Part shown: positions 6,359-29,252 of the stretch, one piece after another | Layout: every line of letters starts with the position of its first letter | Numbering within the stretch: position 1 is the first letter of the stretch | Made by a program: the position numbers and the translations under genes | Source: a virus | Length of the DNA stretch: 39,421 nt | Direction: 5' to 3' (one strand) | Virus record (IMG/VR): IMGVR_UViG_3300002483_000017 | Location: 13,321-52,741 of that record | Notes under the pieces: model-generated | What the model was told of the DNA's origin: nothing | The model's input: only the letters and a program-made list of their open reading frames with translations | The model's database searches: none

Positions 6359-6601
6359 ATGGCAGCAGGTGATCTATCGTTTGTAGACGGCGTCGCAATG
6401 ATTGAGTTGGAGGATGGTAACAAGCGCGAGGCGCTACCTGGCGAAGCTGGGTTTGATAATGCTACTGTCCCCATTGAAGACTTTGAACAACTCCTGGGTA
6501 AGTTAGAAGGATCCAAGATGCGTCAGCAACGTCAAAAGTCTGTTGAAGGCCGTCGTGATATCTATTCACAGGGTCTAGCTTCCATGATGAGCAACTTCTG
6601 A
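6359..6601 (+). CDS. Small acidic protein carrying a conserved C-terminal module (paralogous to 28827-29252)
   Basis: This 80-residue protein has an N-terminal part that is acidic and unrelated to anything I recognise. Residues 35-80, starting ATVPIEDFEQLLGKLEG and ending GLASMMSNF, match the last 46 residues of the minus-strand protein at 28827-29252 at 42 of 46 positions. By hand count the DNA differs at 32 of 138 positions, mostly silently, so the peptide is under strong constraint. Both copies end exactly at NF. A docking or assembly peptide, for example binding capsid or scaffold, would fit. It starts the packaging operon, just before small acidic genes and the terminase. Function unknown. 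Confidence 0.7.
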   Translation: MAAGDLSFVDGVAMIELEDGNKREALPGEAGFDNATVPIEDFEQLLGKLEGSKMRQQRQKSVEGRRDIYSQGLASMMSNF

Positions 6602-11271: not shown

Positions 11272-13617
11272 ATGTCTGACGCTAAGTCTCGTCTTAAGGA
11301 AATTATTGATTCTTACATCGATCGAGATGGAAGTTCTAATGTAGATACGGGAATTGTTGCGTCTCATATCGCTCAAATGAAACTCTTTGGTATTCGCCAA
11401 GGAGTTGAGTTCTTTCCGTCACAAGACAACTTTGGTGCACAACGCAAAGATTTTATCGATAAAGTTGTCAAATATAACAAACTAGATACTCGCCTTGATT
11501 CAATATGGGACTATTTCCTATGTGATGGAAAAGGACTGTTTTATATCCGGCCTACTGAAAATAATTATCGTCTCTATTATTTTCGTAATCATGAGTATCG
11601 CTCTTATTACAATGTCGATGGTGAACTAGAAGAGGTTGTCATTATTTACAGCTATAAAGTCAAAAAACCTAATACAGGTTTTCAAGATATTGGTACGTAC
11701 AATTTAACTGGTGATCCAAACCAAACACCAGGACAAAAGAAATATATTCGTCTTTCAATTAAAGCAAACGTTATTGAAGAGACTCATTCAGACGGAGAAA
11801 TTTCGTTTGAAAATGCAATGGGACAAGTCCCTGGTAAAACTGAAAAGTTTACCAATGCACTTCGTTTTATTCCTTGCGTAGAAATTTTCAATAATCCGAA
11901 AGGGTTCTCTATGGAAGGCAGTGGAGAGTTTGATGCTTTAGCAAATCATATTGTTATCCATGATGGTTTAGTTAATAACATGCGAAAGAACTTACAGTTC
12001 TTTGGTAATCCAACCTTATTATCATCCAGGCCTAAAACTGACTTGATGGAGTCAGGTGGTGATGGAGCAGCACAACGTCCTTCTATTGCAGCCAATTCAG
12101 GCTTTACTAGTCCCCTTGGATTAAGTCGTTCAACGTTTAAACAAGATCCAGTCAGCCGTGGTGTTGATGGGCAAATTAGAGTCCCAAGAGTGATTGCGAA
12201 TCTGGAGCCAAATGATCGAGTTGGTTATATTGTTCCGGATGCAATTTCCGGTGATCAAAATGCATTTGTGCGGCAATACCGAGAAGAAATCCGAACATCA
12301 TTAGGTGGTGTAGACGAATTATCAATTTCAGCAGGTGTTACTGCTACAGAATATAAATCATTATTTGGTCGTGTCTCAGCGACAGCCAAAAAGAAAGCTA
12401 ATGCTATTTATACGCATGGTTTATGTCGTTGCCTTGAATTAATTATTTTCCAAGAAGAACAGTTATTTAAAGATACGCTTGCAGCTGCTGCACAATTTGA
12501 AAAACCAGTGCCCCCTGGACCAGAAGCAACACCAGAAGAAGAGGCTGGTTATCAACAAGCTATGGCTGAATTTGACAGCCGCATGAAACAACTTATGATG
12601 GCTTGTGTCAAAGCACAAATGATTCCACCAGGGGTTAAAGGCTTAATTCCTGATGGAGATATCACAATGCTTTGGCGTTGGTTAGGTCCTGTTTATGAGG
12701 ATTCAACACAAGATATCCTGAACAATTCAATTGTTGTAAGAAACTTACAAGAATTAGGAGTTGATAGCATAGAAGCACTGAAATATCTTTTCCCATCAAA
12801 AACCGATGAGGAAAGAGCGGAAATGCTCTCGGGCTTCCCGTTCAGGATGGTCAACGAATTACAGGGAGCTTATTCCCAGTTTTCTCGTTTAGTGGGGGGA
12901 ATGATGCAGACCCCTCACCCACAAGCACCGGATTTACCTATGGCGGCAGATCCACGTTTGGACTTAACTCCCTATCTGTATCGAACCTTAGAAGCATTAC
13001 AAAAGGAGATGAGTTATGCAGGACGCTACCGTCCAATCGATCCCACAGACGAGCCAACCCGCAGTGGCTCCGAGCAGTTACGTGGCGGCAGCACCGGCAG
13101 CACCGGCAGCTCCAGCCCCGGCCCAAGTGGGAACTCTTTACCCCCAGGCGGTTCCCCAGGCCGCACCTCAGGGGACTACCAGTTACCAATCCGCCCCGTC
13201 AACATTCGTCCCCCCATCCCAGGGTTCGGACCAAATGCAGGGCAATCCATGGGAGTCGGCATTCAACAAGGTGGTGAACCTGTTGGGCAGCCCGGTGCAA
13301 TCCCCGTTCCAGGGTCAACCATCCTCTCCGACTCAATACAGCCCGGCGAATTACGGAGTACCACAAGCCCCGGCACAAACCTCGGCACCATCGGCTCAGC
13401 CGACCTGGCAAACAAACCAGACATCATCCAACAACTCTTCCCCAACCTCCTCGATCAACTCCTTAGAGGACGTGGCGAATCTGCTGGAGTGGAGTCCGGA
13501 AAGCCGGATGGTGGTAGCAAACTACGGAACCGAGGCACCGGCAATTCTGAATCAGTACGCCCTAAATCTGGAAGGGATGCTGGACAGCGCCGTCGCGTGG
13601 GGAGAAAGGGCAACTAA
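11272..13617 (+). CDS. Portal (head-tail connector) protein with a long C-terminal tail overlapping the scaffold gene
   Basis: This 781-residue protein lies between terminase and capsid genes in the canonical portal position. Portals form the twelve-subunit ring through which DNA is packaged. Residues 1-580 have the mixed alpha/beta composition of portals, including SIWDYFLCDGKGLFYIRP near residue 75 and ELSISAGVTATEYKSLFGR near 355. The frame stays open for another 200 residues (582-781), Gly/Ser/Pro-rich and basic at the very end. Those bases (13016-13617) also encode the scaffold N-terminus in another frame. Typical portals are shorter than 781, so the tail may be accidental read-through or real overprinting. 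Family assigned mainly by position, size and neighbours. Confidence 0.72.
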   Translation: MSDAKSRLKEIIDSYIDRDGSSNVDTGIVASHIAQMKLFGIRQGVEFFPSQDNFGAQRKDFIDKVVKYNKLDTRLDSIWDYFLCDGKGLFYIRPTENNYRLYYFRNHEYRSYYNVDGELEEVVIIYSYKVKKPNTGFQDIGTYNLTGDPNQTPGQKKYIRLSIKANVIEETHSDGEISFENAMGQVPGKTEKFTNALRFIPCVEIFNNPKGFSMEGSGEFDALANHIVIHDGLVNNMRKNLQFFGNPTLLSSRPKTDLMESGGDGAAQRPSIAANSGFTSPLGLSRSTFKQDPVSRGVDGQIRVPRVIANLEPNDRVGYIVPDAISGDQNAFVRQYREEIRTSLGGVDELSISAGVTATEYKSLFGRVSATAKKKANAIYTHGLCRCLELIIFQEEQLFKDTLAAAAQFEKPVPPGPEATPEEEAGYQQAMAEFDSRMKQLMMACVKAQMIPPGVKGLIPDGDITMLWRWLGPVYEDSTQDILNNSIVVRNLQELGVDSIEALKYLFPSKTDEERAEMLSGFPFRMVNELQGAYSQFSRLVGGMMQTPHPQAPDLPMAADPRLDLTPYLYRTLEALQKEMSYAGRYRPIDPTDEPTRSGSEQLRGGSTGSTGSSSPGPSGNSLPPGGSPGRTSGDYQLPIRPVNIRPPIPGFGPNAGQSMGVGIQQGGEPVGQPGAIPVPGSTILSDSIQPGELRSTTSPGTNLGTIGSADLANKPDIIQQLFPNLLDQLLRGRGESAGVESGKPDGGSKLRNRGTGNSESVRPKSGRDAGQRRRVGRKGN

Positions 13618-22908: not shown

Positions 22909-23271
22909 ATGTTCAAAACGGAGCACGAACCCCTCGCCCTCCTTGTTGAACTGTCGCCTCGATTAGCCAAGAAACGATTTAGAGAAGAGATATATAAAGA
23001 GTGGAACCATAAATGTGCTTATTGCGGAGCAGATGCTACCTCTTTGGATCACATTATTCCAAAATATAAATCAGGCTGTAGTGGCCGTCATAATTTAGTT
23101 CCTGCATGCAGACGATGTAATGCTAATAAAGGATCAGAAGAAATGAAAGCTTGGTATCAAAAACAAGATTTCTTTATTGAAGAAAAATACGATGCAATTA
23201 AAAGCTGGGTTCAAGCAAATACGTTAGACTTTATAAATGGAAATTTAGATAGCGAAAACGCTGTAGCGTAA
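22909..23271 (+). CDS. HNH endonuclease
   Basis: This 120-residue protein is a metal-dependent nuclease of the HNH (His-Asn-His, McrA-like) family. CAYCG places the zinc cysteines at C36 and C39. LDHIIPKYKSG supplies the catalytic D47-H48. GRHNLVPACRRCNANKG supplies N62 and the second CxxC pair (C67, C70) with the N-x-x-K end. These elements are complete, so activity is expected. Such genes are either homing-type mobile nucleases or packaging-associated cutters. Here it lies next to an integrase-like fragment and away from the terminase, which favours the mobile type. Its stop overlaps the next ATG by one base. Confidence 0.88.
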   Translation: MFKTEHEPLALLVELSPRLAKKRFREEIYKEWNHKCAYCGADATSLDHIIPKYKSGCSGRHNLVPACRRCNANKGSEEMKAWYQKQDFFIEEKYDAIKSWVQANTLDFINGNLDSENAVA

Positions 23272-26200
23272 TGAGTCTATATAAAGATTATGTAAATCGT
23301 GAAAATGATTTAAATTCTATTACACAAGGCACCGCATCTTGGCTAAATTATGGTCAAGAATATGGTGTGATTGATTTTTGGTATGAAAATGTAAACACGC
23401 CAACAACTGTAACTATTAGTGCTCCTGGCATTACGAATCTTACATATGAAGGCACTGTATTCAATCGCTATTTAAGACTTGTAGATCCAAATAAAACTTT
23501 ATATGCAAGTAATCCTCAAGCAGCAACAAATGCTGCTTTTGAACGGTTTGCCCAAGATTATTATTCAGGTAGCGGTTGGCTTGGAGAGATAGGATTTGCA
23601 GGCGGAGCAGCTTACAATCATATAGAGCCAAGTAACGCTTTTGTATGGAATGACGGTAATAAAACTAATTATTACTCAAAAGATGACGCAGGTAAAACAT
23701 TATTTGGACAGCAACACTGGGATCAAAAAGGAAAAAATGAAGGAAGAATATTACCCACTACTGCTATTTTTAGTCTTGATGATAATGGAAAATTAAGTGT
23801 TAACACACAATACATTGGTGGAGACTATAAAAATAATTTCCAAGATCTTGCCAATGCAATAAATAATAATTCTGCTGGAGACTATAAAACATTAATCGAT
23901 GAGCTTAAACTTAGATTTCGCAATGAAAACGATCCTAATGCTAATGATCTTCAGTTTGTATTAAATAATTTTGTAGGCACAAAAGATGCAAAAGGAAATC
24001 CTACAGGTCTTATTGATGCTGCTTATGTAGCAAATAGTATACCAAATGAAGAACGCTGGAACACTAAAGAAGACGGTGCTAAAGCACCTTTAATGGATCC
24101 TGAATATAGTTATTTTGATGCTGATTATTATATTAGAACATCATATGGACAGGATGCTGCCAATGAATATTTAAAGAATGCAACTTTTTCAGCAAGTGAT
24201 GGAAGAACAGTTGAAGATTTAGATTATACATATAAATATGGATTAGATGGAGCAATAGATGTAAATGGAAATAAAATTCCTGTTGGCTATCTTTCAAAGT
24301 ATTTTACAGAAGCATCTAAATCAGCTGATTTTAATCCGCTTGAACATCGTGTAACTGAAGAACAAGAAACTGCTGCAGCCAAGGCATATACAGAAACAGT
24401 TACTGATGCAGAAAAAGAAATTCTACGTTCTTATGGATTAGGCCTTAGTGGTGCAGCGTATGATCCAGCTACTCAAACATACGAAGAATTTAAAGACAGT
24501 TTAAAATTCGGTATTGATCCCTCTGGAGGCACATCTGATTTCTTTGAAAGAGATGAAGCAGGAAATATTATTTATGACGTAGACCCTGAAACAGGAGCAC
24601 AAACTCCTAGGCCGAGACAGGTTGAGATTTTTCAATATGAAACAGATGAAGAAGGTAATCCTGTTTACGAAACAGACGAAGAAGGAAATACATTATATGC
24701 AACAGATGAAGAAGGAAATCAAATTTTAGATGATGAAGGAGACCCAATACCCATACCTAAACTTCTATATGAAATTGAATATAAAACAGATGAAGCTGGC
24801 AATATTGTTTATGAACCTGAAAGAGATGCTAATGGAGATCTTATTTATATCAACTCCTTAGACGAGGCTGGCAATCCTATTCCACGTCTTGATAGAGACG
24901 GAGAGCCTTTGCGAAATGAAGCAGGAGATATTATTTATGAGCAAGAACTAAAAAGAACAGATCAACCTCAGATTGCTTCACAAACACCTGTTTTAAATAC
25001 AGATTTTTTAAACAACGCTCGAACTAGTGCTGTTGGTTCAAGTGTCTTTAATGTATATGGAACAAAAGATTTAGAATTACAAGATCAATTTCAACAGCTT
25101 GCTTTAGATGCTTTTAAAACTTCTTATGACAAATTAAAAGAAGTCAAAAAAGAAGAAAGTGAACTTAGTATGCTTCGAGGCATACCTGGATATGATGAAA
25201 TTTTTAGTGCAAATGAAAGTATTGCAAATTCTATTTTAGGAGATTCAGGAATAGGTGGGTATTTATCTATTCTTGGATATGACACACAAGAAGTACAACA
25301 AAATTTAGAAAGTCAATTATCAGGCGTTACAGGAATATCTAATAACAGTGTACTTTTTAATTGGGAAAAATGGTTTGAAGAAGAATTTACAGAACGTTAT
25401 AAAAATCTTGCCACGATTGAAAGTGAAGCACAGGCAACAATAGAAGGATTAGATCCTAACGATGATCCAGAAGCCTGGAAGGCTTTAATGGATCGTTATA
25501 ACTTAGAAGAAAATACGACAAAAGAAGAAGCTATGGCAGCTTTTTCTGAAACTATACCAATATTAGATGAAGATGGAAATCCAACAGGTGAAGTAGAAAA
25601 TAAATATAATCGTCTTTATTTGTTAGAAGAAGATTTTAAAAATTCTTTTATTGAAGATTATTTAAAACCTAGATTTGATCAATCAAAATCTATGGATGAA
25701 TTCATTTCATATATGGATTCGCTTGATCCAGATGAACAAAATATTTTACAAACTGAAACAGGCTTAACAGCTATTACAGATGTAGCTGCAACGTATGCTA
25801 GAAACAGATTAGATAGCATTTATAAAGCAGAAGATAAAGTTTTTGAAACAACTTTTTATATGAATCCTTTAGCAGGAGACAATAGTGGTTGGGCAGAAGA
25901 TGATGCAAAATATAAAGATTATGTTTTACAAGCAGAAAAAGTTGCAGCCGATTGGAATGAAGCAAAAACTAATGGTAATGCTGTAATTGAAGGCACCATA
26001 TCAAATGCTTATCCACAAGGGATTACCTGGAATGATTACGCTTATTACTATGGTATTGATCTAAAAAATCCTGATCAATTTGCAAGATTACATTATGAAG
26101 TAGTTGGACAAAACTATGGTTTTGATCCTGCTCGTGATGCAATTACATATAAAGATATTGAAGATCAAGCAAATGAAGAGTTGTTACCTTTATTAGAACA

Positions 26201-26879
26201 AGAAAAAATTGCATTAGATGGTAATGTATTTTCAGAATTTACAACACCAGAAGAGCTTGCAGATGCTTTATTAGAAGGAATTAATCCTGATGAAAACGAT
26301 CCAGCCTGGAAAGAATTACTAGAACTTTATGATATTGATGATTACTCAACAGAAATTGAAGCTGTTAGAGAATTAATTATTGAAACATTGCAATCAAGTG
26401 ACGCAAAAGCATACAGAGAAGGTATTAAATATTTAAATGAAAAAGGACGTACACCTACACAAGAGGAATTAGGTGTTAGTTATATTCAACGAGAAGAAGA
26501 TAAGCAAGATTTAGAAGATCCTGATGAAGATATTTTATTTCAAACATTTAAACAATATGGTTATGGAGGTACTGCCGATGATTTTTACAATGACTTTATG
26601 CCAGATGACATAGACCGAGCTGATTTAGGATTTTTAACTCAAGCTCTTTCTGGTGATCTTGAACTAAAAGAAATTTCAACAGATCCTTTTGAAGCCTTAG
26701 CAGATATAAGTGCATTGTTTGGTGATACAGGAAGCAACGTTTTTGACACAGCTATTGAAAGAGATGAACAAGAAGAACAAGAAGATTTTGGAAATTACTT
26801 TGATCTATTTGGAGACGATGGTTCTGAAGATGATGGCGAGTATATTGGTGATATGGATTATAGTGTATTTTTTAAATAA
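23271..26879 (+). CDS. Giant acidic repeat protein (1202 aa), probable virion component
   Basis: This is the largest gene in the window, very acidic and AT-rich in codon use. Residues 1-400 contain alternating Tyr/Asp-rich motifs (e.g. YFDADYYIRTSYG, and HWDQKGKNEGR near 145), which recall cyanobacterial adhesin-type repeats. Residues ~426-560 carry ten-residue units of the form x-D-E-x-G-N-x-x-Y. Two further 35-residue segments resemble each other: LDPNDDPEAWKALMDRYNL near 725 and INPDENDPAWKELLELYDI near 1001. The Asp-x-Asp/Asn-Gly patterns suggest calcium-dependent folding. There is no signal peptide or membrane segment. It starts one base over the HNH stop. Virion or internal protein is likely; family unknown. 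Confidence 0.7.
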   Translation: MSLYKDYVNRENDLNSITQGTASWLNYGQEYGVIDFWYENVNTPTTVTISAPGITNLTYEGTVFNRYLRLVDPNKTLYASNPQAATNAAFERFAQDYYSGSGWLGEIGFAGGAAYNHIEPSNAFVWNDGNKTNYYSKDDAGKTLFGQQHWDQKGKNEGRILPTTAIFSLDDNGKLSVNTQYIGGDYKNNFQDLANAINNNSAGDYKTLIDELKLRFRNENDPNANDLQFVLNNFVGTKDAKGNPTGLIDAAYVANSIPNEERWNTKEDGAKAPLMDPEYSYFDADYYIRTSYGQDAANEYLKNATFSASDGRTVEDLDYTYKYGLDGAIDVNGNKIPVGYLSKYFTEASKSADFNPLEHRVTEEQETAAAKAYTETVTDAEKEILRSYGLGLSGAAYDPATQTYEEFKDSLKFGIDPSGGTSDFFERDEAGNIIYDVDPETGAQTPRPRQVEIFQYETDEEGNPVYETDEEGNTLYATDEEGNQILDDEGDPIPIPKLLYEIEYKTDEAGNIVYEPERDANGDLIYINSLDEAGNPIPRLDRDGEPLRNEAGDIIYEQELKRTDQPQIASQTPVLNTDFLNNARTSAVGSSVFNVYGTKDLELQDQFQQLALDAFKTSYDKLKEVKKEESELSMLRGIPGYDEIFSANESIANSILGDSGIGGYLSILGYDTQEVQQNLESQLSGVTGISNNSVLFNWEKWFEEEFTERYKNLATIESEAQATIEGLDPNDDPEAWKALMDRYNLEENTTKEEAMAAFSETIPILDEDGNPTGEVENKYNRLYLLEEDFKNSFIEDYLKPRFDQSKSMDEFISYMDSLDPDEQNILQTETGLTAITDVAATYARNRLDSIYKAEDKVFETTFYMNPLAGDNSGWAEDDAKYKDYVLQAEKVAADWNEAKTNGNAVIEGTISNAYPQGITWNDYAYYYGIDLKNPDQFARLHYEVVGQNYGFDPARDAITYKDIEDQANEELLPLLEQEKIALDGNVFSEFTTPEELADALLEGINPDENDPAWKELLELYDIDDYSTEIEAVRELIIETLQSSDAKAYREGIKYLNEKGRTPTQEELGVSYIQREEDKQDLEDPDEDILFQTFKQYGYGGTADDFYNDFMPDDIDRADLGFLTQALSGDLELKEISTDPFEALADISALFGDTGSNVFDTAIERDEQEEQEDFGNYFDLFGDDGSEDDGEYIGDMDYSVFFK
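24642..24719 (+). repeat. Tandem 30-bp repeat inside the giant acidic gene
   Basis: Two full units and most of a third, with a 30-base period, start at 24642, 24672 and 24702. Each begins with ACAGA(T/C)GAAGAAGG and encodes the ten-residue pattern T-D-E-E-G-N-x-x-Y-x. More diverged copies of the D-E-x-G-N peptide continue on both sides (about 24550-24950). The near-identical DNA of the three central units suggests recent slippage or duplication. In-phase repeats let the array change length without breaking the gene. Confidence 0.75.
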
Positions 26880-28162: not shown

Positions 28163-28200
28163 GCTTATCTATTAGAATATATAAAGTAAGGACTAAACGC

Positions 28201-28491
28201 ATGGGTGAATCAGCATCTGTAAAAGAGTTTGAATTACCACTTCATTTGCAACTCGCCATGCGTAGAGCTGAACTTGAAGCTAAAGAATTAACCTGGGATC
28301 AGCTTTATGCAGCTCTTTTGAATCTGTATCATCAAAGGCTGCTAGAAATGCAAGCAATTAAAGACATGATGCAGGATGAAAATATTGAACTTGAATTTGA
28401 CATTCCTAGTGATATTGAATTAACACAGCTAGCCATGACCATGATGGCAATGGAAGATGACGATGATGATGATTTAGAAGCATCTTTTTGA
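28201..28491 (+). CDS. nblA: NblA-like phycobilisome degradation adaptor
   Basis: This 96-residue protein has a core (residues about 10-58) that aligns without gaps to NblA as I remember it: FELPLHLQLAMRRAELEAKE, then LTWDQLYAALLNLYHQRL. I count about 13 identities over 48 positions, including the L-x-x-Q, R-x-x-E, L-x-x-x-Q and L-Y-x-Q positions. NblA tethers phycobiliproteins to the Clp protease so that light-harvesting antennae are dismantled; freshwater and some uncultured marine cyanophages carry it. Here about 38 extra residues follow, ending in a run of Asp and Glu. It sits between the endolysin and a conserved small gene, with AAGGA nine bases before the ATG. A look-alike helical pair is possible, so the call is strong but unproved. 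Confidence 0.7.
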   Translation: MGESASVKEFELPLHLQLAMRRAELEAKELTWDQLYAALLNLYHQRLLEMQAIKDMMQDENIELEFDIPSDIELTQLAMTMMAMEDDDDDDLEASF

Positions 28492-28512: not shown

Positions 28513-28830
28513 ATGTTATCGACGAACTACCGCTTGCGTCTTGAGTTTATTTGTGAACGAATTTCTAAAGGAGAAGAAGTTCAGTTAAAAGACATGGTAT
28601 GGGCTGAGAAATTAGCAAAAGCAAATAGAACAGCAGGAGAAATGATGCGAAAAGCACGTCGTTTTGCAGCTAATCCAGACATGCCTGCTGAAGGTTTAGA
28701 CAGTTTTATGAATGCTATGGATTTGGGAGATCCTGATCCAAGTAACCATCGCACAGAATTTAAAAGTGTTGAAGATATGGCCCAGTGGTTTAGCCAAGAA
28801 AAAACTGACGATTGGCGTCAAAGGGATTAA
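28513..28830 (+). CDS. Conserved cyanophage small protein
   Basis: This 105-residue protein begins LRLEFICERISKGEEVQLKD, then WAEKLAKANRTAGEMMRKAR, and ends with DPDPSNHRTEF and TDDWRQRD. I recall the W-A-x-K-L-A-K-A-N-R-T block and the G-D-P-D-P-S-N-H motif from hypothetical proteins of several cyanophages, where they are conserved. The product is probably helical. It ends over the first four bases of the convergent minus-strand gene, marking a junction between transcription directions. Role unknown; a virion or packaging link is possible. Confidence 0.65.
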   Translation: MLSTNYRLRLEFICERISKGEEVQLKDMVWAEKLAKANRTAGEMMRKARRFAANPDMPAEGLDSFMNAMDLGDPDPSNHRTEFKSVEDMAQWFSQEKTDDWRQRD

Positions 28831-29252
28831 AAATTACCCATCATAGAAGCTAATCCCTCAGCATAAATATCTCTTCTGCCTTCAACAGATTTTTGTCTTT
28901 GTTGACGCATTTTAGATCCTTCTAATTTACCTAAAAGTTGTTCAAAATCCTCAAGAGGTACCGTGGCTTCTCCTGTAGATCCCTGAATATTTACGGTTTC
29001 TTCACCAGGCTCTGGATTTAAATCAACACCTGTTTCTACAGGATTATTACTTAAAAAAGAAAAAGCTTGATTAGAAGATGTTGAAGAAGGTGGAGTATCT
29101 TGTTGATAACTAGTAGCAGTAAAAAACGTAGGAGTAGCAAGTGCTTGACTCTTACTAGCTTTATTTACAACATTACCTTGATTATCAAAAAAAGGATTAA
29201 GCCCTTGCTCTTGATAAGAATAACTTTTTTCTTGCTTAGGAGGCTTAAACAT
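28827..29252 (-). CDS. Protein with disordered N-terminus and conserved C-terminal module (paralogue of 6359-6601)
   Basis: This 141-residue minus-strand protein has residues 1-95 that are Gln/Ser/Thr/Pro/Asn-rich and probably disordered (NPFFDNQGNVVNKASK). Residues 96-141 (ATVPLEDFEQLLGKLEG through GLASMMGNF) are nearly identical to the end of the protein at 6359-6601, with 42 of 46 matching. Codons here are AT-rich and differ silently from the other copy, so this is an old paralogy kept by selection rather than a recent copy. It meets the plus-strand gene tail to tail. The shared end may be an assembly or docking tag; function unknown. Confidence 0.68.
   Translation of the reverse strand: MFKPPKQEKSYSYQEQGLNPFFDNQGNVVNKASKSQALATPTFFTATSYQQDTPPSSTSSNQAFSFLSNNPVETGVDLNPEPGEETVNIQGSTGEATVPLEDFEQLLGKLEGSKMRQQRQKSVEGRRDIYAEGLASMMGNF

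Follow-up and report, generated by a model that had tools for sequence, protein, structure and literature searches.

An NblA homologue with an acidic C-terminal extension, encoded beside the lysozyme gene of S-EIV1-like cyanophages

The DNA analysed here (the window; 39,421 nucleotides, positions 13,321 to 52,741 of the IMG/VR virus record IMGVR_UViG_3300002483_000017) contains, at 28201..28491 on the + strand, an ORF of 96 codons starting with ATG. Sequence comparison gives good support to its product being a diverged, virus-specific homologue of NblA that carries an acidic C-terminal extension. In cyanobacteria, NblA directs the breakdown of the light-harvesting antenna. Phage NblA is usually treated as an auxiliary gene acquired now and then. 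Here, the NblA homologue is a core gene of the S-EIV1-like lineage and not a sporadic auxiliary gene. It is marked by its fixed linkage to the lysozyme gene, together with the acidic extension and the absence of the usual basic residue. The protein is probably a Clp adaptor of the NblA type that has diverged and whose substrate-binding end has been remodelled; phycobilisomes most likely remain its target.

Genomic context

The ORF is present just as the original prediction described it. It is a genuine gene on which purifying selection is strong (median pairwise dN/dS 0.026, 213 pairs). An AAGGA stretch at 28188..28192 (+), 8 nt before the ATG, is a candidate ribosome-binding site, and scans for promoters and terminators near the gene gave no signal beyond shuffle level. 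The endolysin named earlier as the neighbour is a phage lysozyme (27497..28162, +; PF00959, E 6.6e-21) that ends 38 nt upstream of the ATG on the same strand. The next gene downstream (28513..28830, +) belongs to phrog_507, whose function is unknown. The placement 3' of the lysozyme gene suggests that the NblA-like gene may be late.

The virus record that contains the window has 52,889 bases and the gene order of Synechococcus phage S-EIV1 (KJ410740). The order common to both consists of an HNH nuclease, a very large protein, a basic protein of ~100 residues, the lysozyme, the NblA-like gene and, later, a dCTP deaminase. The window is from an S-EIV1-like cyanophage. The host of S-EIV1 is Synechococcus, and the lineage infects cyanobacteria. 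The S-EIV1 orthologue of the window protein, AHV82245.1, is annotated just as "hypothetical protein"; it is 66% identical, occupies the same place after the lysozyme and, at 106 residues, has a longer acidic run. The lineage is widespread yet little studied, and its group (gOTU G238) has been estimated to make up about 3.3% of marine cyanophage content (PMC5332604).

A scan of viral contigs found 462 stretches that encode relatives of the window protein, and more distant relatives came from a second query. The family comprises 106 distinct proteins of 93–108 residues. In 30 representatives sharing less than 90% identity, P13, L14, R21, E24, L39-L40 and L42-Y43 are invariant. In every one of the 102 relatives whose upstream DNA is long enough, the lysozyme gene directly precedes the NblA-like gene. 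In the reverse check, starting from the lysozyme, the NblA-like gene follows directly in 71 of 72 loci; the lysozyme of the lone exception (L312) is just 24% identical and evidently belongs to another phage, giving a count of 71/71 for the lineage. The downstream slot varies: just 20 of 103 relatives have phrog_507 after the NblA-like gene. Because the adjacency holds in both directions while the downstream neighbour changes, the lysozyme and the NblA-like gene form a fixed unit of the lineage.

This invariant adjacency could also be expected if an old NblA fold now served a structural role in a lysis- or virion-associated protein, for example by regulating or packaging the adjoining lysozyme. 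A weak PHROG match to the tail assembly chaperone phrog_2992 (window protein E 0.0045; 5 of 22 relatives) points the same way. However, most relatives lack that match, it is far weaker than the gapless NblA signal, and no hydrophobic run of membrane-segment length is evident in the sequence, so that we regard such a role as improbable. A tail assembly chaperone as such would be expected upstream of a tape measure gene; the neighbours here are the lysozyme and phrog_507 genes, and no tape measure gene was identified.

Relationship to NblA

As a single sequence, the window protein has no match in Pfam, NCBIfam or the PDB, and from such searches alone the assignment to NblA would falsely look refuted. 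The PF04485 profile search proposed with the original prediction fails for the window protein itself but succeeds for its relatives, of which 15 of 22 match (best E 5.7e-6). Few of them reach the curated cut-off of 25 bits; L059 scores 27.1 bits and L080 25.1 bits, and L065 and L111 are at or above 25 in genome scans. In the PDB, the family profile has just one match, 1ojh (Anabaena NblA; E 2.3e-4).

An NblA HMM was built from 65 distinct cyanobacterial NblAs. The score of the window protein against this HMM is 20.3 bits, compared with a maximum of 13.8 bits among 14,232 scored shuffles and no more than 1.9 bits for reversed sequences. With the search size set to 10,000, 80 of the 106 family members fall below E 1e-3. 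Reciprocally, the family model finds 45 of the 65 cyanobacterial NblAs. Profile–profile alignment of the family with NblA (hhalign) gives 96% probability and E 3e-9 over 53 gapless columns, while 60 column-shuffled profiles reach at most 7.9%. The gapless register foreseen from the single sequence therefore holds, and it covers residues 8–60 (28222..28380, +), which we will call the head. When 390 cyanobacterial genomes were searched with the family model, 46 matched; the best 20 of those 46, inspected as loci, can all be read as NblA ORFs, some of which share the LYHQ stretch of helix 2.

Since the PF04485 matches of the relatives, the 1ojh match, the shuffle controls and the reciprocal profiles agree, common ancestry with NblA is well supported, as the original prediction had proposed. 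The protein is a short helical sequence, and both single-sequence Pfam and Foldseek searches are blank, as would be the case for a hairpin unrelated to NblA that resembles it by chance. Chance resemblance nevertheless appears very improbable and is strongly disfavoured by the sequence comparisons, in which residue and column shuffles stay far below the observed scores.

In the genomes of the cyanobacterial class sampled, three loci (L215, L216 and L218, from genomes of 2.4–3.1 Mb) contain strongly diverged NblA-like ORFs. The ORF of L218 is barely detectable with Pfam NblA (22.7 bits).

Structural model

AlphaFold2, run with the family alignment, predicts helices at residues 14–29, 32–59 and 71–89 and a low-confidence tail, with a mean pLDDT of 70.6. 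The pLDDT of the first two helices, which lie in the head, is about 80. The head of L059 modelled alone gives helices at 14–28 and 32–62 with a pLDDT of 84. NblA has a helix-loop-helix fold (PMC7966870, PMC4103541), and the first two predicted helices agree with it; the helical hairpin anticipated for the head is thus reproduced in these monomer models. Foldseek gave no significant match for the full model and the head alone against the PDB, or for the full model against viral models. This is a weak test of a two-helix monomer, run without a positive control. Because a short hairpin offers little to match, the blank result counts neither for nor against NblA.

Substrate-binding end and C-terminal extension

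In NblA, a ClpC-binding motif near the N terminus and a phycobiliprotein-binding motif at the C terminus have been reported (PMC4103541). The position numbers used here (Q12, R16, L51 and K53) follow the gapless register against NblA. Within the N-terminal motif L[ST]xEQxF..R, Q12 is present in all 106 phage proteins, R16 in 105, F13 in 63 and E10 in 38. The Ser/Thr8 of this motif, as in the cyanobacterial LSLEQ, is replaced by proline in 106 of 106.

The C-terminal end of the head also differs. L51 and K53 of Anabaena NblA are taken here to be the specific phycobiliprotein-binding residues (Bienert 2006). A hydrophobic residue is kept at the L51-equivalent position in all 106 phage proteins. 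Of the 65 cyanobacterial NblAs, 57 have a basic residue at the K53-equivalent position, whereas the 106 phage proteins all have Ala, Gln, Glu, Thr or Ser there. With the basic residue missing throughout the family, the substrate may be another than in NblA, as the original prediction had suspected. On the alignment, this loss lowers the claim that the protein would be an ordinary NblA and leaves the proposed homology untouched.

The unusual length and the long acidic tail noticed in the window protein, with its runs of D/E, are family traits. All relatives have an acidic extension of ~38 residues after the head, and the mean charge from residue 61 to the end is -14. The extension starts with a conserved stretch, FDxP[ST]xxEL, and continues with the third helix of the model and a run of acidic residues. 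In the window protein, the linker and the start of the third predicted helix are residues 61–79 (28381..28437, +), and the end of that helix and the acidic low-confidence tail are residues 80–96 (28438..28488, +). PF or a close PxF variant terminates 75 of the 106 proteins: 48 end in PF, 27 have a PxF-like variant or a residue after the Phe, and 31 end otherwise. Acidic tails are rare elsewhere in these loci, where at least 9 D/E in the last 22 residues occur in 42 of 1,230 ORFs. Only 6 of these 42 are set clearly apart from the NblA-like family by length, and the entry from L078 is a family member with an upstream start.

Proposed role

Like NblA, the two-helix head would most likely dock on ClpC, the unfoldase of the host, and during infection the adaptor would hand over antenna (phycobilisome) proteins of the host to be degraded. 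Its substrate end appears to have been rebuilt: the C-terminal basic residue has been lost, and an acidic extension has been gained that includes the third predicted helix and, in most relatives, a tip with Phe. Since phycobilisome linker proteins are basic, the acidic arm could contact them; the extension probably takes over the contact of the lost lysine, perhaps with these linkers. Alternatively, the extension may be a flexible end for the protease.

The evidence leans towards a phycobilisome adaptor, with the homology to NblA, the kept N-terminal positions, the placement of the helices, the cyanobacterial hosts, the core status and the low dN/dS in its favour. Other cyanophage NblAs bleach cyanobacteria on expression (PMC9602691), which adds to it. 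Counted against it are the K53-equivalent, which is never basic, the lack of a Pfam NblA match for the window protein, the blank Foldseek result (a weak test) and the place beside the lysozyme, unlike that of the early-expressed Ma-LMM01 nblA.

That every family member has lost the basic residue for phycobiliprotein binding, with Q12 and R16 kept, would also fit a Clp adaptor that derives from NblA but now has a different target. Its head would still bind ClpC, and the new end and acidic extension would recruit a host defence, replication or envelope protein instead of phycobilisomes. Retargeting agrees with the conservation of the new extension and with the universal presence of the gene, whereas known phage nblA genes are patchy. 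However, at this position S-TIP37, too, has no basic residue in its NblA-like protein (register by eye), and phycobilisomes are the obvious substrate in cyanophage hosts, with nothing pointing to another. We therefore think retargeting unlikely.

Also rather unlikely, in our estimate, is a core viral adaptor for host-takeover proteolysis, in which the acidic Phe-tipped extension on the NblA head would aim at a substrate other than phycobilisomes. The SSB of E. coli ends in DDDIPF. In one version, which is speculation, the tip would copy this acidic C-terminal tip of SSB and bring DNA-metabolism proteins to ClpC. SSB-tip mimicry stays speculative because many of the tips are variants or end otherwise, although the 48 proteins that end in PF would fit it.

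If the phycobilisome adaptor is active, the dismantling of the antenna would be a constant part of infection in the S-EIV1-like lineage. The loss of a known substrate-binding residue, coupled with the gain of an extension, provides a natural test of substrate choice by NblA.

Comparison with known NblAs

Cyanobacterial NblAs (PF04485; 1ojh, 2q8v, 2qdo and 3cs5) share with the phage family ~53 gapless residues, two predicted helices, the N-terminal Q and R and the LYxQ/LYHQ of helix 2. However, they have 53–69 residues compared with 93–108, and they lack both the FDxP[ST]xxEL linker and the acidic extension. The Microcystis phages Ma-LMM01 and MaMV likewise encode an NblA head. The Ma-LMM01 protein has about 65 residues from an inner Met and keeps a basic IIKK end, and its gene adjoins nrdA, whereas the window gene adjoins the lysozyme.

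The marine Synechococcus phages S-TIP37, S-RIP2 and KBS-P-1A also have diverged NblA-like ORFs. These marine podovirus ORFs encode about 66 residues, keep LTLEQQF, lack the acidic extension and lie beside an exonuclease gene, and the S-EIV1-family profile scarcely matches them (E 0.047). The GenBank record of S-TIP37 has no gene annotated for this ORF (L193:3011-3208), which overlaps the last part of the exonuclease gene.

Among marine isolates, nblA has been attributed to podoviruses, to S-TIM5 and to relatives of S-SCSM1 (PMC9602691); for the marine podoviruses the prediction is that of Nadel et al. 2019, as cited in the same paper. The photosynthesis genes given for the S-EIV1 group by Nishimura et al. 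2017 are hli and ptoX, and nblA is not among them (PMC5332604). No earlier report of nblA in the S-EIV1 lineage was found in the openly readable papers that were searched. A search for light-harvesting-like (hli-type) proteins found none in the record of the window; in two related records there were matches, but these were only weak or broken.

Additional observations

Two ORFs of the window on opposite strands, 6359-6601 (+) and 28827-29252 (-), share a near-identical C-terminal module of about 45 residues, VPxEDFEQLLGKLEGSKMRQQRQKSVEGRRDIY..GLASMM.NF, which apparently reflects duplication within one phage genome. The ORF at 23271-26879 encodes a protein of 1202 residues that contains acidic repeats such as ETDEEGNPVYETDEEGN; its C terminus, also acidic, ends in DYSVFFK.
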